Below are positions 3,809 through 31,074 of a stretch of 64,000 nt of DNA, one piece after another. The stretch lies in contig NZ_CP049362.1 in assembly GCF_019343455.1 (NCBI RefSeq), forward strand, positions 2,542,001-2,606,000, read 5' to 3'. Numbering within the stretch: the stretch's first letter is position 1; every line of letters starts with the position of its first letter. A model generated the notes under the pieces. It searched no databases. It saw only the letters and a list, made by a program, of their open reading frames with translations, and was not told the DNA's origin. Position numbers and translations under genes: made by a program. This stretch comes from Alcaligenes ammonioxydans. Lineage in GTDB: Bacteria > Pseudomonadota > Gammaproteobacteria > Burkholderiales > Burkholderiaceae_B.

Positions 3809-4480
3809 ATGGCCACATCCACTTTACGCCGCCAAGGGCCCCGTGAGCGCATGTTGGCGCACGGCCCCACCTGTCTGACGACCGCTGAACTGCTGGGTAT
3901 TGTGCTGCGCACCGGGACACGCGAGCGCAACGCTGTCGAGCTGGGCCAGATGTTGCTGGACCATTTTAACGGACTCAAAGGATTATTATCGGCCGATGCT
4001 TCAGCCCTGCGCCAACTGGATGGAATCGGCCCAGCCAAATGCACGGAACTATTGGTCATCCGCGAGCTGCAACGCCGCTGCGCCCTGGAATCCCTAAACG
4101 GCCTGCCAGTGCTGAACCATGCCGACAAAGTGCGCGAATACTGTCTGGCCCATCTGGGTCATTTGCCAGTGGAACACTGTCTGGCCCTGTTCCTGGACAA
4201 CCAGCTTCGCTTGATCTGTGCGGAAGAGATCGCCCGGGGGACGATAAATCAAGCATCGGTCTACCCTCGGGAAATTGTGCGCTCAGCCCTGCGCCATCAC
4301 AGCTGCGCCTTGATTCTGGCCCACAACCACCCCTCGGGCGCCGCGCACCCCAGCGCCTCCGATATCCGTCTGACCCGCCATATTCGTCAGGCCTTGGCCT
4401 TGGTGGATATCCGCTTGCTGGACCATATTATTGTCACCCCCAGTCAGACCGTCTCCATGGCCGAACGCGGAGATCTGTAG
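3809..4480 (+). CDS. radC: RadC family protein (UPF0758, JAB/MPN domain)
   Basis: The 223-residue protein has a helix-hairpin-helix-like N-terminal part (LDGIGPAKCTELL near residue 70). Its C-terminal MPN+/JAB metalloprotease-like domain contains the HNHPSG...PSASD motif (near 172-185), which has all the metal-binding His/Asp positions. The family was once linked to DNA repair, but its biochemical role is unsettled. The protein starts MATSTLRRQGPRERML, typical of RadC. It is divergent from fkpB/ispH and is followed after about 90 bp by the RpiR-type regulator. Confidence 0.92.
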   Translation: MATSTLRRQGPRERMLAHGPTCLTTAELLGIVLRTGTRERNAVELGQMLLDHFNGLKGLLSADASALRQLDGIGPAKCTELLVIRELQRRCALESLNGLPVLNHADKVREYCLAHLGHLPVEHCLALFLDNQLRLICAEEIARGTINQASVYPREIVRSALRHHSCALILAHNHPSGAAHPSASDIRLTRHIRQALALVDIRLLDHIIVTPSQTVSMAERGDL

Positions 4481-21873: not shown

Positions 21874-24531
21874 ATGCAGGAACGTTACAACCCCAGCGAG
21901 GTCGAACAACTCGCTCAGCAAAACTGGACCGATCGGGACGCCTATCGTGCCGTCGAGAACGCCACCGCTCCGGATGGCTCGCTCAAACCCAAGTTTTACG
22001 CATGCTCCATGCTGCCCTACCCCAGTGGCAAGCTACACATGGGCCACGTGCGCAACTACACCATCAACGACATGATGGCGCGCCAGCTACGCATGCGCGG
22101 TTTTAACGTTCTCATGCCCATGGGCTGGGATGCTTTTGGCATGCCCGCCGAAAACGCCGCCATCAAGTCACAAGTGCCGCCTGCCAAGTGGACTTACGAC
22201 AATATCGCCTACATGAAAAAGCAGATGCAGGCGATGGGGCTGGCAATCGACTGGTCGCGCGAAATGTGCGCCTGCGATCCTGAATACTACAAATGGAACC
22301 AGTGGCTGTTCCTGAAGATGCTGGAAAAAGGCATTGCCTACCGCAAGACCCAGACGGTGAACTGGGACCCAGTGGACCAAACCGTTCTGGCCAACGAACA
22401 GGTTATTGAAGGCCGTGGCTGGCGCTCCGGTGCGCTGGTTGAAAAGCGTGAAATCCCCGGCTACTACCTGCGCATTACCGATTACGCCGAAGAGCTGCTG
22501 GATACCGTGAAAACCGGCCTGCCCGGATGGCCCGAGCGTGTACGCCTGATGCAGGAGAACTGGATCGGCAAGAGCCAGGGCGTACGCTTTGCGTTCCCTC
22601 ACGACATTCGTGACGAGCAAGGCCAACTGATTCAGGACGGTCGTCTGTACGTGTTCACCACCCGCGTGGACACCATCATGGGCGTTACCTTCTGTGCGGT
22701 TGCTCCTGAGCACCCGCTGGCTGCCCTGGCTGCCCGCAACAATCCCGAGCTGACGGCCTTTATTGAAGAATGCAAGAAAGGCGGCACCACGGAAGCCGAC
22801 ATGGCTACCCGCGAAAAAGAAGGTCTGCCGACCGGCCTGAGCGTCAAGCACCCCTTGACGGGCGCGGACGTTCCTGTCTGGGTCGGTAACTATGTCTTGA
22901 TGAGCTACGGTGACGGTGCCGTGATGGGCGTGCCTGCTCACGACGAGCGCGACTTCGCCTTCGCCCTGAAATACCAATTGCCTATCAATCAGGTCATTGG
23001 GGTAGAAGGCAAGGAATACGACGCCACCCAATGGCAAGACTGGTACGGCGACAAGCAGCAAGGTCAAACCATCAATTCCGGCAAGTACGACGGCCTGACG
23101 CACGTCGCGGCCGTGGATGCCATTGCCGCAGACCTGAACGCCAAGGAACTGGGCGAAAAACAAACCACCTATCGTCTGCGCGACTGGGGCATTTCCCGTC
23201 AGCGTTACTGGGGCACCCCGATCCCGATCATCCACTGCGACGATTGCGGACCGGTTCCTGTTCCAGAAAAAGATCTGCCCGTGGTCTTGCCCGAAGAGCT
23301 GATTCCCGATGGCAGCGGCAACCCGCTGAACAAGCATGACGCCTTCCTGAAGTGCGCTTGCCCTTCTTGTGGCAAACCCGCACGCCGTGAAACAGATACC
23401 ATGGACACCTTTGTGGACTCGTCCTGGTACTTCCTGCGCTACACCACACCCAATCTGAACGATTCCATGACCGATCCACGCACCGATTACTGGATGCCCA
23501 TGGATCAGTACATCGGTGGTATCGAACACGCTGTGCTGCACTTGCTGTACGCCCGCTTCTGGACCAAAGTCATGCGCGACATGGGCCTGGTCAAGATTGA
23601 CGAGCCCTTCACCCGCCTGCTGTGCCAGGGCATGGTGCTGAACCACAGCTACACCCGCCGCACCCCACAAGGGGGTATCGAATACTTCTGGCCTGAAACT
23701 GTCGAAAACGTTTACGACGAAAAAGGCGCGATTATCGGTGCCCGCTTAAAGAGCGATGGTCAGCCCGTGCAGTACAACGGCATTGGCACCATGTCCAAGT
23801 CCAAGAACAACGGCGTGGACCCTCAATCCCTGATCGACACGCTGGGTGCGGACACCGCCCGCCTGTTCATCATGTTCGCCAGCCCGCCAGAACAGACGCT
23901 GGAGTGGTCTGATTCGGGTGTGGATGGCGCCAACCGCTTCCTGCGTCGCCTGTGGGCCTTCTGCTACAACCACGCCGATGCGCTGCGCGCCGGCAACGCC
24001 CAAGCTACCGATTGGAGTGATCTGGACGCCGCTGCCAAGCGCGCACGCCTGGAAATTCACTCGCTGCTCAAGCAAGCCAATTACGATTACGAGCGCATTC
24101 AATACAACACGGTTGTTTCGGCGTGCATGAAAATGCTCAACACGCTGGAACAGACGCAGTGGGAAGACACACCGGCAGCACAACGTGCGCTGGCCGAGAC
24201 CACCTCCATCCTGTTGCGTGTTCTGTACCCGGTTGTCCCCCACATCACCTGGCAGTTGTGGCGTGAGCTGGGTTGGGCTGATACGCTGGGTGATCTGCTC
24301 GATGCAGCCTGGCCCGACGTTGATGAACAGGCCTTGATTGCCGACGAAATTGAACTGATGCTGCAAGTCAACGGCAAGCTGCGCGGCTCACTGGTCGTGC
24401 CTCAGGGAGCAGAAAAAGCCGCCATTGAACAAGCCGCTGCCCAACACGCCGCCGTGCTCAAGTATTTGGAAGGCCGCCCTGCCAAACGCATTATCGTCGT
24501 GCCCGGCAAACTCGTTAACGTCGTAGGTTAA
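21874..24531 (+). CDS. leuS: Leucine-tRNA ligase
   Basis: The 885-residue class I synthetase begins [18 protein letters not shown]. The HIGH-type motif is in [17 protein letters not shown] (near residue 45). The CP1 editing domain follows ([13 protein letters not shown] near 265). The catalytic lysine motif is MSKSKNNG (near 640), and the C-terminal anticodon-binding and LTA-like domain ends at [10 protein letters not shown]. The start was placed at 21874 because the upstream ATG lies inside the promoter -10. It charges tRNA-Leu in the cytoplasm. lptE follows after 2 nt; the leuS-lptE-holA order is conserved in proteobacteria. Confidence 0.98.
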
Positions 24532-25168: not shown

Positions 25169-26230
25169 ATGGGACGCAGGGCCGACCACGACACCTTGCT
25201 GCGCGAACTGGCTACGCCATCCGCCGCTTTCCAACCACTTTATGTGGTGTCTGGCGACGAGCCCCTCTTGCTGGTTGAAGCAGCCGACGCGGTACGCGCC
25301 CGTGCCCGTCAGGATGGTTTTACAGAACGCAGCAGCTTTACGCTGGATGCACGCGCAGACTGGTCCCAGCTATTTGCGGTGGCCCAGAACATCTCCTTGT
25401 TTGGCGATCAAAAGCTGGTGGATATCAACATCCCCAGTGGCAAACCCGGCAAACCGGGGGGCGACGCCCTGCAAAAACTGTGCGAACTGATTAGCGGTGG
25501 CCAGATGGACGGCACCAGCTTTCTGATCCAACTGCCCAGATTGGACAAGGCCACGCGCAACAGCAAATGGTGTCAAGCTCTGGAACAAGCGGCCTACTGG
25601 GTTGAAATTCAGCCCATCAGTCGCCACTCCCTGGCGGGCTGGATTGCCCAGCGCCTCCAGGCTCAGGACCAAAGCCTGGAGCGCAACAGCCTGGAATGGA
25701 TGGCTGACAAGGTTGAGGGCAATCTGTTGGCTGCGCATCAGGAAATCCAGAAACTGGCCCTGATTTACCCACCTGGACAGCTCACCCAGCAAGAACTGGA
25801 GAGCGCGGTACTGAATGTGGCACGATACAGCGTGTTTGATCTGCGCGACGCCATGCTGGCGGGCCATAGCCAACGGGCGCTCACCATACTGGATGGCTTG
25901 CAGGCAGAAGGCGAGGCCTTGCCTCTGGTCTTGTGGGCCGTGGGTGAAGAGGTCCGCACCCTGGCGCGCCTGTCGCAAGCGCGTCAGCAAGGGATGGATT
26001 TATCCAACCTGTTTCGTCAATACCGCATTTTCGGTCCGCGTGAAAAACTGGTACGCCAGGCGCTGGATCGCATCCCGCCCCACAGCTGGCCCGCCTCGGT
26101 TCTGCACGCCCACGATATAGACCGTTTGATTAAAGGCCTGCACCCCAACGGACGTCAGCAAGACCCGTGGGAAGAAATGCGCCGCCTGACCATGCGTATC
26201 GCGGTCGCGACACAAGCGCCCCGTCGCTAA
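25169..26230 (+). CDS. holA: DNA polymerase III subunit delta
   Basis: The 353-residue protein shows the clamp-loader delta layout. The N-terminal AAA-like domain begins FQPLYVVSGDEPLLLVEAAD (near residue 20). NISLFGDQKLVDIN is near 78, the degenerate sensor region LPRLDKATRNSKW near 130, and the C-terminal collar domain contains MADKVEGNLLAAHQEIQKLAL (near 185). It opens the beta clamp as part of the replicative polymerase holoenzyme. It follows lptE with a 2-nt gap, as in many gammaproteobacteria and betaproteobacteria. Confidence 0.95.
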   Translation: MGRRADHDTLLRELATPSAAFQPLYVVSGDEPLLLVEAADAVRARARQDGFTERSSFTLDARADWSQLFAVAQNISLFGDQKLVDINIPSGKPGKPGGDALQKLCELISGGQMDGTSFLIQLPRLDKATRNSKWCQALEQAAYWVEIQPISRHSLAGWIAQRLQAQDQSLERNSLEWMADKVEGNLLAAHQEIQKLALIYPPGQLTQQELESAVLNVARYSVFDLRDAMLAGHSQRALTILDGLQAEGEALPLVLWAVGEEVRTLARLSQARQQGMDLSNLFRQYRIFGPREKLVRQALDRIPPHSWPASVLHAHDIDRLIKGLHPNGRQQDPWEEMRRLTMRIAVATQAPRR

Positions 26231-26298
26231 GCGTCCAATACCCCTTAATGTCTTAATTGTTGCGATAATGCTCTCTTGAACCGGAGAGTTACACGGCT

Positions 26299-27594
26299 AT
26301 GAACGATATCACCCAGTCCTCTGCCGCCACCCAGGTCGGCGATCTGTCCTCCATGATGCAAGATTTGGGCAAGCGTGCCCAGCTTGCTGCACGCCGCATG
26401 CGCGCCGCCACCGGCAAAGCCAAGGCTGACGCCCTGCGCTACATGGCTGACGCCCTGATTGAACAAAAAGCCCAGTTGCAGGCGGCCAACGAGCTGGACC
26501 TGCAAGCGGCACGTGAACGTCAGATTGCCCCGGCCATGATCGAGCGTCTGGCCCTGTCCGACCGTGCCCTGGAGATCATGACCACAGGCCTGCGTCAGAT
26601 TGCCGACATGGACGATCCGGTCGGACAGATCAGCGCCTCGCGTACTCGCCCCAACGGCATGCGCGTCGCCCAGATGCGCGTGCCATTGGGCGTGATCGGC
26701 ATCATTTACGAATCGCGCCCCAACGTGACCATTGACGCCGCCGCCCTGTGCCTGAAATCGGGCAATGCCACGATTTTGCGCGGTGGCAGCGAAGCATTCC
26801 ACTCCAACCAGGCTTTGGCGCAGATTATTTCCAACAGTCTGGAGCGCGCCGGATTGCCCAAAGACGCCGTGCAAGTAGTGCCCACGACCGACCGCGATGC
26901 CGTCGGCCTGCTGGTGACCATGAATGACTACGTGGACGTCATCGTGCCGCGTGGTGGCAAAAGCCTGATCCAACGCCTGAGCGCCGAAGCAACCGTGCCG
27001 CTGATCAAGCATCTGGATGGCAACTGCCACGTCTATGTGGACGAGTTCGCCGATCTGGAAAAAGCCAATCGTATTGTCTTTAATGCCAAAACCTACCGCT
27101 ATGGTATTTGCGGCACGATGGAGACCTTGTTGGTTCACCGCAGCATTGCGCCGGCTTTCCTGCCGGAAATGGCCCGCCAACTACAGGAAAAAGGCGTGGA
27201 ACTACGAGGCTGTGAGCAGACCCGTGCGCTGGTCGCCAATGTCGCTCCCGCTACCGAAGAGGATTGGGAGACCGAGTTTGCCGCGGCCATACTGGCCGTA
27301 CGCATTGTGGACTCCATGGATCAAGCCATGGACCATATCGCTCAGTACAGCTCCGAACACACCGAATCCATTGTGACGGAAAACCTGAGCCAGGCCGAAC
27401 GTTTCCAACGTGAAGTCGATTCCAGCTCTGTCATGGTAAACCTGCCCACCTGTTTTGCCGACGGCTTCGAGTATGGCCTGGGAGCCGAAATCGGCATTTC
27501 CACCAACCGTCTTCATGCCCGTGGTCCAGTCGGCCTGGAAGGGCTGACGACTTATAAATGGGTGTTGCACGGCAACGGCCAGATGCGTGGTTAA
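26299..27594 (+). CDS. proA: Gamma-glutamyl phosphate reductase
   Basis: The 431-residue aldehyde-dehydrogenase-superfamily enzyme carries [20 protein letters not shown] (near residue 120), [15 protein letters not shown] (near 150) and the catalytic Cys in [15 protein letters not shown] (near 272). It reduces gamma-glutamyl phosphate to glutamate semialdehyde in proline synthesis; proB is not adjacent. GGAGA lies 11 nt before the ATG. The 68-nt gap after holA contains a GATAAT sequence, so an internal promoter is possible. Confidence 0.97.
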
Positions 27595-28014
27595 ATGATG
27601 CTTTGGCTAAAGACCTTTCACATCCTGTTTGTGACCTCCTGGTTTGCCGGGCTCTTCTACCTGCCCCGCATTTATGTCAACCTGGCCCAGGAGCACGACC
27701 CCAAAACCCATGAAACGCTGCTGGGCATGGCTCGACGCCTGTATCGCTTCATGGCGCCCCTAGCCGTCCTGACCTTGCTGACGGGCCTGGGGCTGTTTTT
27801 GTATTACGGCATAGGCAAAGGACAGGGATGGATGCACGCCAAGCTGACCCTGGTTCTGGTTCTGTTTGCCTTTCACGGTGTGTGCGGACGCTATCTGCGG
27901 CAGTTCCAGCAAGGACAGCAAAACCGCTCACACGTATTCTTCCGCTGGTTCAATGAAATTCCGGTCATCGTTCTGCTGCTGGTCCTCATCCTGGTGGTTA
28001 TAAAACCCTTCTAA
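27595..28014 (+). CDS. hemJ: CopD/HemJ family membrane protein, probable protoporphyrinogen IX oxidase
   Basis: The 139-residue protein has four predicted membrane helices. The N-terminus WLKTFHILFVTSWFAGLFYLPRIYV matches the HemJ (UPF0093) signature: a His at residue 9 in helix 1, then WFAGLFYLPR. WMHAKLTLVLVLFAFHG (near 82) carries the conserved Lys. HemJ oxidises protoporphyrinogen IX in haem synthesis in bacteria that lack HemG/HemY, and related proteins are simply called CopD-like, so the enzymatic call is a family inference. It starts directly after the proA stop codon and is followed 10 nt later by rlmL. Confidence 0.75.
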   Translation: MMLWLKTFHILFVTSWFAGLFYLPRIYVNLAQEHDPKTHETLLGMARRLYRFMAPLAVLTLLTGLGLFLYYGIGKGQGWMHAKLTLVLVLFAFHGVCGRYLRQFQQGQQNRSHVFFRWFNEIPVIVLLLVLILVVIKPF

Positions 28015-28024
28015 TACCTTATTC

Positions 28025-30319
28025 ATGTCAGACCAATCTGAACGCAAGACACTAAGCCTGAACCCAGGCGCCAAAAAGAAAGCCAGCAACGCGGAACCCC
28101 GCGTGCGTTCGGGTGCACGCGCCCGAGCAGCCAGCCTGCAGCAGGACCGCCAGGGCGGTGCCCAACGAGAGGCCCGTCCCTACGTAGAAAAGCGCGATCA
28201 GGAGCGCCGTGAACGCCCCGCATTTAACCGTGACCGCGACAGCCGCCCACAATCGGGTGAACGTCGTGAGTTCTCCGGCGAGCGCCGTGAACGCCCCGCA
28301 TTTAACCGCGACCGCGACAGCCGCCCACAATCGGGTGAGCGTCGCGAGTTCTCCGGTGAGCGCCGTGAACGCCCCGCATTTAACCGCGACCGCGACAGCC
28401 GCCCACAATCGGGTGAACGTCGCGAGTTCTCCGGTGAGCGCCGTGAACGCCCCGCATTCAACCGTGACCGCGACAGCCGCCCACAATCGGGTGAACGTCG
28501 TGAGTTCTCCGGCGAGCGCCGTGAACGCCCCGCATTTAACCGCGACCGCGACAGCCGCCCACAATCGGGTGAGCGTCGCGAGTTCTCCGGTGAGCGTCGC
28601 GAACGCCCCGCATTTAACCGCGACCGCGACAGCCGCCCACAATCGGGTGAACGTCGTGAGTTCTCCGGCGAGCGCCGTGAACGCCCCGCATTCAACCGCG
28701 ACCGCGACAGCCGCCCACAATCCGGTGAACGTCGTGAGTTCTCCGGTGAGCGCCGTGAACGCCCCGCATTCAACCGCGACCGCGACAGCCGCCCACAATC
28801 CGGTGAGCGTCGCGAGTTCTCCGGTGAGCGTCGCGAACGCCCCGCATTCAACCGTGACCGCGACAGCCGTCCACAATCCGGTGAGCGTCGCGAGTTCTCC
28901 GGTGAACGGCGTGAACGGCCTACCTTCAAAGACAACTCCGAATCCTCAGAGCGCCCTGCGGCTGGCAATATGCCTAGCGGGCTGTTTAGTCCGGCCAGTG
29001 ATTCTGACGCTTTCCCCCAGTATGTCTCCCCTATTCAGCGTGTAGACAGCCCCCAGGCCCCTAAACCCGGCCAACGCCTGCCCGATAGCAATATCGAACA
29101 AAACGAGCGTGTCCAGGTCAAGGCCCTGCAAGGCGAGCGCTACCGGTTGTTTGCACCCTGCCCTCAAGGACTGGAAGAAGCACTGGCTTTGGAGCTGCAG
29201 GCTCTGGGCTATGAAAACGTTCTGGCCGGTCGTGCCGGCTGTCATTTTGATGCAGACTGGATTGGCGTCATGCGCGCTAACCTGTCCTCACGACTGGCGA
29301 CGCGCATTTTGCTGGAAGTCTCGCATGCTCCTGTCACCAACGAGGAAGACATTCTGGCCTTGGCCCGTGTGACGCCGTGGGAGCGCTGGTTTGGCCCCGA
29401 GCACACACTGCGTGTCGATACCTCGGCCGTACGCAGTCCAATGCAAAGCCTGCAATACTGCAATCTTCGCGCCAAAGACGGAATTTGCGACCGACTCAGG
29501 GACCTGGAAGGTGCCCGTCCCTCGATCGACACGGTGCGCCCCGACGCCAAGGTACATTTGTTCCTGGACGAGACCACGGCCACTTTCTATCTGGACACCA
29601 GCGGCGAGTCCTTGTTCAAACGCGGCTGGCGTCATGACAAGGGCGACGCCCCCTTGCGTGAAAACCTGGCAGCCGGTCTGCTGGTCCTGTCAGGATGGGA
29701 CCCAAGCAAACCCTTGATCGACCCCTTCTGCGGTAGCGGCACCATTCTTATCGAAGCCGCCTGGATGGCTCTGGGGGCTCCTCCCGGCATCTGGCGTCCA
29801 TTCCACTTCGAACGCCTGCGCTGCCATGATCAGCGTCTGTGGCGTGACATCAAGGACGAAGCGCGTTCCATGATCGCCCCTCGTCTGGACACCCCGCTGA
29901 TTGGCTACGACATCAACCCCACCGTTCTGGATGCCGCCCGTTCCAACCTGGAGCGCTCGCACCTGACCTTGGAGACGATTCGCTTCGAACAGGGCGATGC
30001 CCTGAAGATTCGCCCCGAAACAGAAGCTGGCTGGATTGTGACCAATCCTCCTTACGGAGAGCGTCTGGACCATCAGGACGAGGACTTCTGGCCCAGCTGG
30101 GCCAGTAACCTCAAGCAGAACTTTGCCAACTGGAGCGTAAACATGATCAGCAGCGACCTGGAGCTGCCACGTCATATGCGCCTCAAACCCAAGCGCCGTT
30201 ACCCCTTGTATAACGGTGCGCTGGATTGCCGCCTGTTCTGTTTTGACATGGTTCCGGCCAGTTATCGCAATAACGATGCAGCCTCGGACGCCAGCGAAGA
30301 CTCGGCCAGCGCTGAATAA
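28025..30319 (+). CDS. rlmL: 23S rRNA (guanine-N2) methyltransferase RlmL-like, with Arg-rich repeat extension
   Basis: The 764-residue protein comes in three parts. Residues 1-59 are a basic low-complexity start. Residues 60-302 are nine and a fraction near-identical 26-residue repeats rich in Arg, Glu, Asp and Ser. From about residue 370 come a THUMP domain (YRLFAPCPQGLEEALALEL) and a class I methyltransferase domain, with SAM motif DPFCGSGTILIEAAW (near 565) and catalytic NPPYGERL (near 674). The enzymatic half matches RlmL, which makes m2G2445 in 23S rRNA. The RlmK half of the E. coli fusion is absent. The extension is probably disordered and RNA-binding. The gene follows hemJ by 10 nt. 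Confidence 0.88.
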   Translation: MSDQSERKTLSLNPGAKKKASNAEPRVRSGARARAASLQQDRQGGAQREARPYVEKRDQERRERPAFNRDRDSRPQSGERREFSGERRERPAFNRDRDSRPQSGERREFSGERRERPAFNRDRDSRPQSGERREFSGERRERPAFNRDRDSRPQSGERREFSGERRERPAFNRDRDSRPQSGERREFSGERRERPAFNRDRDSRPQSGERREFSGERRERPAFNRDRDSRPQSGERREFSGERRERPAFNRDRDSRPQSGERREFSGERRERPAFNRDRDSRPQSGERREFSGERRERPTFKDNSESSERPAAGNMPSGLFSPASDSDAFPQYVSPIQRVDSPQAPKPGQRLPDSNIEQNERVQVKALQGERYRLFAPCPQGLEEALALELQALGYENVLAGRAGCHFDADWIGVMRANLSSRLATRILLEVSHAPVTNEEDILALARVTPWERWFGPEHTLRVDTSAVRSPMQSLQYCNLRAKDGICDRLRDLEGARPSIDTVRPDAKVHLFLDETTATFYLDTSGESLFKRGWRHDKGDAPLRENLAAGLLVLSGWDPSKPLIDPFCGSGTILIEAAWMALGAPPGIWRPFHFERLRCHDQRLWRDIKDEARSMIAPRLDTPLIGYDINPTVLDAARSNLERSHLTLETIRFEQGDALKIRPETEAGWIVTNPPYGERLDHQDEDFWPSWASNLKQNFANWSVNMISSDLELPRHMRLKPKRRYPLYNGALDCRLFCFDMVPASYRNNDAASDASEDSASAE
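28202..28930 (+). repeat. Coding minisatellite: nine 78-bp tandem repeats plus a partial tenth
   Basis: Nine consecutive 78-bp units (28202-28903) and a degenerate partial unit (28904-28930) lie in frame within the rlmL-like gene. Each encodes ERRERPAFNRDRDSRPQSGE followed by RREFSG. Units differ almost only at synonymous sites (CGT/CGC, TTT/TTC, GAA/GAG, TCG/TCC), in a mosaic pattern. Because 78 is a multiple of 3, changes in copy number keep the downstream enzyme in frame. Confidence 0.97.
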
Positions 30320-30345
30320 GCGTCAAGCAGTCTTGTAAAAGGCGA

Positions 30346-30383
30346 CAAGGGCCAGGACCATGCAAATGGCTTGGCCCTTGTTT
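30346..30383 (+). terminator. Probable terminator after rlmL
   Basis: CAAGGGCCA (30346-30354) pairs with TGGCCCTTG (30372-30380) around a 17-nt loop, followed by TTTAT. The large loop and short T run make it a weaker call. Confidence 0.6.
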
Positions 30384-30555
30384 ATGGGGACAAGCCCCCC
30401 ATATCATGGTTACCGCTCACATTTTTAACGCTTCTCTCGACACCAGGCCGTGTTCCAGACCCCAGCACACCTTGCTGGTCAGCCCTGAACGGGCAGCATT
30501 CCGTTAGCAGGCGATATACGCGATAATGGAAGTCTTCCCTGCATCAAGACGCACC

Positions 30556-31074
30556 ATGACACCCTCCTTTACTACCCCAGGCCGCTGGCGACGCTTTGCC
30601 TGCATGATGTATGAATCCATTCTGCTGTTTGGCGTCATTTTTACCACTGGCTATCTGTTCGATACCTTGACCCAAAGCCGTAGCGGCCTGGATCTGCGGC
30701 ATGTGCGTCAGGTCGTTCTGTTCATTGCTCTGGGGGTGTACTTTGTGCTGTGCTGGCGCAAAGTGGGTCAAACCTTGCCCATGAAGACCTGGCATATACG
30801 CCTGGTTGACGAGCACGGCCAGATTCCTGCCCTGCGCACCCTGGTGCTGCGTTATATTCTGCTATGGCCCCTGCCCTTGCTCGGGGCATTGCTGGTTCAG
30901 CTCCTGTCTGGCTACACAGGTTTTGCCTCCACAGACCTGCTTATCGTCTTTACGCCGTTTCTGAACTTTATCTGGACCTGGTTCGACAAAGACCAGCAGT
31001 TCCTGCACGACCGTCTTAGCAAGACTCGTCTGATCAATGCGCGCCCAAGCCGGGTTAGCTCGGCTGCTGCCTGA
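30556..31074 (+). CDS. RDD family membrane protein
   Basis: The product has three to four hydrophobic segments. The RDD-type pattern runs from RWRRFACMMYESILLFGVIF near the start, through LCWRKVGQTLPMKTWHIRLV, to KDQQFLHDRLSKTRLI at the end. RDD proteins are small inner-membrane proteins of unclear function, sometimes linked to ion transport. The start at 30556 (172 residues) leaves about ten residues before the conserved block, as is usual; an ATG ten codons upstream (30526) is also open, and neither has a clear Shine-Dalgarno sequence. hslO follows after 43 nt. Confidence 0.82.
   Translation: MTPSFTTPGRWRRFACMMYESILLFGVIFTTGYLFDTLTQSRSGLDLRHVRQVVLFIALGVYFVLCWRKVGQTLPMKTWHIRLVDEHGQIPALRTLVLRYILLWPLPLLGALLVQLLSGYTGFASTDLLIVFTPFLNFIWTWFDKDQQFLHDRLSKTRLINARPSRVSSAAA

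Follow-up and report, generated by a model that had tools for sequence, protein, structure and literature searches.

A length-variable coding minisatellite in the N-terminal tail of an RlmL-type rRNA methyltransferase of Alcaligenes ammonioxydans

The analyzed window is a 64-kb stretch of DNA (positions 2542001-2606000 of a single chromosome-sized contig of 3.77 Mb) from Alcaligenes ammonioxydans. Its plus strand contains an rlmL-type gene (28025..30319) encoding a protein of 764 amino acids, in which a long N-terminal extension precedes an RlmL core. Three Pfam domains follow one another on the same strand in the order expected of RlmL: the RlmL ferredoxin-like domain PF22020 (29147..29311, residues 375-429), the THUMP domain PF02926 (29336..29596, residues 438-524), and the methyltransferase domain UPF0020 PF01170 (29621..30232, residues 533-736). 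The NPPY motif (30044..30055, plus strand, residues 674-677) is present and is invariant in an alignment of 27 sequences. PDB 3v97 is the best match of the core both by sequence (E 7e-61) and by structure (E 1.4e-36; 32% identity over 387 columns). Both comparisons favor an RlmL identity, in agreement with a preliminary description of this DNA. In E. coli RlmL, the catalytic asparagine lies in NPPY, and its replacement (N309A) is reported to abolish m2G2445 (PMC11194073). N674 would be the counterpart of N309 in the Alcaligenes protein, and m2G2445 in 23S rRNA is its expected product, judging by homology. The closest named relatives of the core come from Alcaligenes faecalis and A. nematophilus (97-98% identity), and an RlmL core was detected in 243 of 250 genomes of the family. 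One further record (P0040), whose RlmL is 96% identical to the core from the window, is labelled Providencia rettgeri by its source and is probably misnamed or contaminated.

The fold of the core is shared with the RlmL half of E. coli RlmKL (YcbY; PDB 3v97 and 3v8v). Unlike the E. coli protein, the Alcaligenes enzyme has no RlmK half and carries an N-terminal extension of 372 residues; the alignment of the 3v97 and 3v8v chains starts at their residue 4 or 5. The model of bifunctional RlmKL, NF008748, gave 334 bits against a cut-off of 466 and was matched only at its positions 3-390 of 704. No match to the PF10672 profile, which we take to represent the RlmK/RlmI type, was found in the genome, while a control search was positive in 9 of 14 genomes. 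Based on the half-matched model and the lack of PF10672 in the genome, the enzyme seems to be of a stand-alone RlmL type that is active without an RlmK partner of this family. Immediately upstream of the gene are an aldehyde-dehydrogenase-family gene, presumably proA, and a UPF0093 gene, presumably hemJ. The gaps are only 0 and 10 bases, and hence the rlmL-type gene probably belongs to one transcript with both neighbors. No sigma-70-like site was found in 26000-30700.

The extension consists of three parts, all encoded on the plus strand. The head (28025..28201, residues 1-59) contains a KTLSL...RSGARAR motif. It is followed by nine 78-bp units (28202..28903, residues 60-293), each encoding the identical 26 amino acids (ERRERPAFNRDRDSRPQSGERREFSG), and by a partial tenth unit (28904..28930, residues 294-302) that diverges after ERRERP. 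A non-repetitive linker of 70 residues, mostly predicted to be disordered (28931..29140, residues 303-372), leads to the core. Tandem Repeats Finder (TRF) places the array at 28202-28917, with period 78, 9.2 copies, 94% matches, and a score of 1236. Together with the partial unit, the array comprises 243 amino acids. The preliminary description had placed nine units and a partial tenth N-terminal to the THUMP and methyltransferase domains, and TRF, translation, and Pfam agree with it. Its term "near-identical" applies to the DNA of the units; as proteins, the nine units are identical. The tail of about 245 residues that it reported matches the array, which is only a part of the extension, the 59-residue head and the linker being the rest. 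Its observation is confirmed and its interpretation supported in part; it missed the N-terminal motif, the unrelated units in other genera, and the repeat tails on other RNA-acting enzymes that are described below. The sole other tandem array found by TRF in the window has a 24-bp unit in two copies (24476-24524, score 61).

In the head, the strict pattern KTL[ST]L...RSGARAR was found in 104 of 114 Met-starting relatives, with or without repeats, about 40 of these proteins being near-identical ones from Alcaligenes. Residues 31-43 form the only helix that AlphaFold modelled in the extension, with modest confidence, and Pfam gave no match for residues 1-310. Neither the head nor the array has a second copy in the genome: the head query retrieved the gene and one match interrupted by stops (E 0.34), and the tail query gave, besides the gene, a weak antisense match at the very same position, also with stops (E 4e-4).

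The nine units vary at nine columns, all of them at codon position 3 and all synonymous. Unit 2 is the same as unit 5, units 1 and 4 are one site apart, and all four combinations of alleles are present in 22 of the 36 pairs of variable sites. This mosaic fits block duplication and exchange among units, and recurrent silent transitions could also contribute; the gene conversion or slippage suggested earlier is compatible with it. Of neutral changes in the 26-amino-acid unit, 24-33% are expected to be silent. Therefore, nine silent columns out of nine would occur by chance with a probability of 2.6e-6 to 5.1e-5, depending on the transition bias assumed.

The same tendency is observed in other strains. 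In nine unit sets from eight genomes, the alleles within arrays comprise 167 synonymous and 45 nonsynonymous ones (9 and 0 in the window). The pooled pN/pS of the arrays is 0.087, ranging from 0 to 0.157 among the sets, which indicates that the amino acid sequence of the repeat is under selection. Thus, codon differences do not alter the protein freely, and the earlier suggestion of synonymous divergence under protein-level selection is confirmed. For the first 380 codons of the core, dN/dS between the window and eight other genomes is 0.017-0.043. Although these measures cannot be compared strictly, the repeat, while far from free to vary, appears to be under weaker constraint than the enzyme core. 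Over six genomes, the mean distance between units is 0.112 within a genome and 0.182 between genomes, and none of 300 label shuffles reproduced this difference. The closeness within genomes is driven largely by one genome (G004), while in three others (G002, G006, and G007) the distances within and between are about the same. Hence, the units show only partial homogenization and not full concerted evolution. Because such repeats provide many comparisons of the same codons inside one gene, they offer a clean measurement of selection on a disordered region.

The number of units differs between strains, as the preliminary description had anticipated. We compared the window with the best 42 relatives from the database; in the 40 proteins retaining both flanks, the array spans 108-451 residues, or 4 to 18 pieces, the window having 10 pieces by the same splitting rule. 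The repeat number is far from identical everywhere, and the changes are in frame. The type of unit depends on the lineage: 26, 27, or 25 residues, and 33 where a 7-residue ERREFSG piece is doubled. Tail lengths are unequal in 56 of 59 pairs of proteins with identical 392-residue cores, with a median difference of 52 residues, that is, two units; this fraction is inflated, as clustering of the database at 90% hides copies of the same length. With head-to-tail units in the range of 10-100 bp and a strain-variable copy number, the array is a real coding minisatellite of variable length, under selection and located in the gene of a housekeeping rRNA enzyme. A separate observation concerns the single-contig genome of A. 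faecalis AU14 (G003; L086/L031, L117), where the rlmL head is absent beside the array and SecD/SecF-like genes, recognized by eye, lie upstream. The UPF0093 neighbor is found there at the contig start (bases 489-905), far from the core. Most probably, the contig was cut or mis-joined inside the array; possibly, this is a real rearrangement.

The composition of the array is distinctive. In the window it has 31% Arg, no Lys, 23% Asp plus Glu, and 7.8 aromatic residues per 100, about one per ~13 residues. The fraction of charged residues (FCR) is 0.54, and the net charge (NCPR) is +0.08 per residue. At most one of 300 shuffles mixed the charges equally finely, as scored by a home-made measure that differs from the published kappa. 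The alternating Arg/Asp/Glu tail of the preliminary description proved inexact in detail, the array being a closely mixed, lysine-free polyampholyte with only a small net charge. Five further Alcaligenes tails, whose units are partly or wholly different, have 27-30% Arg, no Lys, a net charge of +0.07 to +0.08, and 7.3-7.8 aromatics per 100; by the same measure, no more than one of 300 shuffles mixed their charges as finely. Two Alcaligenes-like tails that are more distant (P0044 and P0045) deviate slightly, with net charges of +0.11 and +0.09, 6.9 and 6.2 aromatics per 100, and 1 and 3% Lys, respectively. The extensions of six other relatives are shorter and contain no repeats; their charged fraction is 0.28-0.36, their aromatics number 2.5-5.4 per 100, and the mixing is not significant. 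The net charge of these extensions (+0.08 to +0.15) is the same as that of the array or higher, and thus charge alone does not set the array apart. The 26-residue unit contains no RG or RGG and does not belong to the RGG/GAR type. Disorder prediction, proposed in the preliminary description, gave the expected result: in an AlphaFold model (27 sequences), pLDDT is ~36 across the array and >90 for most of the core, with a whole-model pTM of 0.55. Given its position between the conserved head and the enzyme, the array can serve as a variable-length spacer as well as a putative binding surface.

Long tails are not a general property of the family. The core is shared by 69 more distant relatives, whose extensions have only 74-199 residues; hence, a long tail is not generally needed. 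We surveyed the 700 bases before the core at 52 loci of named records using TRF (score of at least 50) and detected arrays at nine loci, three of them from Alcaligenes, and none at the other 43. The strongest of the non-Alcaligenes arrays in this survey is that of Bordetella genomosp. 1 (locus L063, upstream of position 4001), with a 39-bp unit encoding 13 residues (YRGERSGQGDRGG) in 10.9 copies. A metagenome-assembled genome (MAG) has a four-residue RPDS unit in the same tail. Another genome (G248) has an 11-residue RSDSPRRGDGP unit; in its survey, for which 11 stretches were picked, nine of them for long frames, TRF found arrays in 5 of the 10 stretches scanned. A unit of ~41 residues was seen twice in A. 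endophyticus and was missed by TRF because the available upstream sequence is short. By eye, these units appear unrelated, and so the tail of RlmL seems to have acquired repeats several times. The use of frame length as a stand-in for tail length in the family survey was abandoned, since several long frames are open sequence upstream of the start, an example being L122.

Similar tails are present on other enzymes acting on RNA, a likeness that the preliminary description had foreseen. A search with the tail only, which scored just the 7997 candidates sharing most words (lengths about 420-1337), gave 58 matches, comprising 43 RlmL relatives of the Alcaligenes set and 15 other proteins. By Pfam, all 15 act on RNA: 13 RluB-type pseudouridine synthases, one DEAD-box helicase, and one SpoU-type rRNA methyltransferase, named by its source as acting on 21S rRNA. 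The RluB-type matches are close kin, and therefore the search yields three families and not fifteen independent cases. The RluB-type proteins (P0121, P0123-P0133, and P0135) carry long N-terminal tandem repeats of the ERKPYGEKREF type, and tail lengths are unequal in three of four groups with an identical 290-residue core. Like the array, these tails are N-terminal and rich in ERK/ERR, Phe/Tyr, and Gly, with a net charge of +0.06 in the one measured; unlike the array, they belong to another enzyme family and use Lys and Tyr besides Arg and Phe. The DEAD-box protein P0122 (residues 40-340) has an N-terminal repeat (RSERPAYNRDDRRPSYGD) resembling the Alcaligenes unit, with a net charge of +0.07 and 7.0 aromatics per 100. 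In the genome of the window, the ends of the RluB-like L114 and the DEAD-box L096 (and, weakly, of L097) are basic and of low complexity, and no 26-residue repeats were seen in them by eye. The tail of L114 is long, C-terminal, and rich in Arg and Gly, without evident tandem repeats. In bacterial RNA-binding and RNA-processing proteins, Arg is reported to be enriched in low-complexity regions (PMC6821194), which is consistent with the Alcaligenes array.

By analogy with tails of other RNA enzymes, the likeliest function of the array, which we propose with moderate confidence, is that of a length-tunable tether concentrating RlmL on nascent pre-50S RNA. The layout of the protein, the turnover of its repeats, purifying selection, and a prediction of disorder are established here, and from them we infer contact with RNA, local enrichment, and help in assembly. 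A polyampholyte linker, predicted to be disordered, joins the conserved N-terminal motif to the catalytic core. It grows and shrinks by whole coding units via recombination or slippage, with selection retaining the amino acids of the unit. Most likely, many weak Arg-phosphate and Arg/Phe contacts form between the linker and nascent pre-rRNA, and perhaps with other tails; RlmL would thereby become locally more concentrated on the 50S subunit during its assembly. In E. coli, a catalytically dead RlmL is reported still to stimulate 50S assembly, and unwinding of helix 74 is reported for RlmKL (PMC11194073). The Alcaligenes tail might likewise help assembly and, without an RlmK partner, aid the opening of the helical target. 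The net charge of the array is just slightly positive, and this weighs against the tether, as do the equal or higher net charge of the repeat-free extensions, the short extensions of the 69 distant relatives, the slight deviations of P0044 and P0045, and the lysine blocks of the KKE/D analogue discussed below. As strains share the enzyme core while their arrays, built from one kind of repeat, range from ~100 to 450 residues, the effect of tail length and composition on rRNA modification and ribosome assembly can be tested directly.

Serious rivals of the RNA tether are a constraint on solubility and a docking motif. Purifying selection on the array could stem from solubility or avoidance of harm and not from function. 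In this case, a minisatellite recombining in a dispensable linker would simply be tolerated, and selection would act only against aggregation, toxicity, and loss of frame. The short extensions of the 69 distant relatives agree with this, as do the unrelated units in other genera, which are expected of a permissive site. It is nevertheless rather unlikely: a dispensable linker would be expected to show a higher pN/pS than the arrays do, the five further Alcaligenes tails retain the same composition, degree of charge mixing, and density of aromatics although their units have changed, and at least four units are present in all 40 proteins with both flanks. Alternatively, the 26-mer is a short linear motif for a protein partner, such as a DEAD-box helicase, the RNA degradosome, or a ribosomal protein, and the copy number sets avidity. 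The strict conservation of each unit suits a motif better than a bulk composition, and a docking role was proposed for the amino acid repeats of Sm proteins in archaeal Borg elements (PMC9879509). We consider docking unlikely, because the unit sequence differs between Alcaligenes lineages while the composition is unchanged, and the unit in Bordetella genomosp. 1 is unrelated. The unequal tails on identical cores might suggest instead that the repeat number itself is selected and makes the activity or dosage of RlmL strain-specific, similarly to contingency loci. This is improbable: length is linked to no phenotype or environment, its spread is exaggerated by the database clustering, and the changes seen keep the frame and thus give no sign of on/off switching, although most frame-shifted copies would escape a protein search.

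Two other explanations question the array as a methyltransferase tail. An antisense open frame or a DNA or RNA element, and not the protein tail, could be conserved. Indeed, antisense frames are open across the array in the window, and in the nine unit sets the wobble-on-wobble frame comes close to the sense frame in its number of synonymous alleles (161 and 167 of 212, respectively), the discordant sites (14 vs 8) not discriminating between the two. However, this frame contains stops in seven of the nine arrays, being free of them only in G000 and G001 (full units only), and the other two frames are less synonymous than chance. The stops largely refute antisense coding and identify the sense frame as the selected one, leaving this explanation very improbable. 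Finally, some assemblies are interrupted at the array or beside it: a run of N occurs there in G009, in G005 the core lies near a contig end, and G003 is the arrangement discussed above. The shortest arrays may be collapsed; P0001, with the exact core of the window and only four pieces, is on a 33-kb contig, and its short array may reflect assembly collapse. Breaks of this kind suggest under-assembly and not invention of repeats, and intact in-frame arrays of 9-17 units are present in seven single-contig genomes, including that of the window. An assembly artefact is therefore scarcely credible.

A search of the open-access literature, which is weak evidence of absence, revealed no work on repeat-containing disordered tails of bacterial rRNA-modifying enzymes, nor on a repeat-tailed bacterial RlmL. 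The array belongs to known kinds, being a coding VNTR and a polyampholyte tail of an RNA enzyme. The RNase E C-terminal scaffold of the Caulobacter BR-bodies, as described in the review PMC9312465, is likewise a disordered extension of an RNA enzyme. RNase E differs in being a scaffold for RNA decay, and the multi-site contact with RNA is described there for RNase E; the comparison is by description only. The amino acid tandem repeats (aaTRs) of Borgs, as reported in PMC9879509, are near-perfect in-frame repeats that are disordered and fast-evolving and also occur N-terminally on RNA-binding Sm proteins. The array similarly has a unit length divisible by three, near-perfect amino acid repeats, and predicted disorder. 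The Borg repeats are carried by extrachromosomal elements, whereas the array is in an enzyme gene on a 3.77-Mb chromosome-sized contig and not on a Borg element.

A further parallel is provided by the KKE/D tails of yeast snoRNPs. According to PMC11528048, modification enzymes are brought together at nascent rRNA by these disordered polyampholyte tails, which are needed for efficient modification of rRNA; when they are lost, modification declines. The KKE/D tails and the array are both terminal, disordered, strong polyampholytes with a high charged fraction and a positive net charge on rRNA-modifying enzymes. The KKE/D tails, as described in the same source, are built of lysine doublets in alternating charge blocks, while the array has no Lys, closely mixed charges, and variable tandem units; it would work like a KKE/D tail but is not one. 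A more general possibility, which we offer tentatively, is that unrelated bacterial rRNA-modifying enzymes and RNA helicases repeatedly grew tails by tandem duplication of short units, converging on one recipe of closely mixed Arg/Glu/Asp, a net charge of ~+0.07 per residue, and regularly spaced aromatics. The recipe would be selected, the copy number would drift freely, and bacteria would thus have a counterpart of the polyampholyte tails by which the nucleolus assembles its modification enzymes on nascent rRNA.
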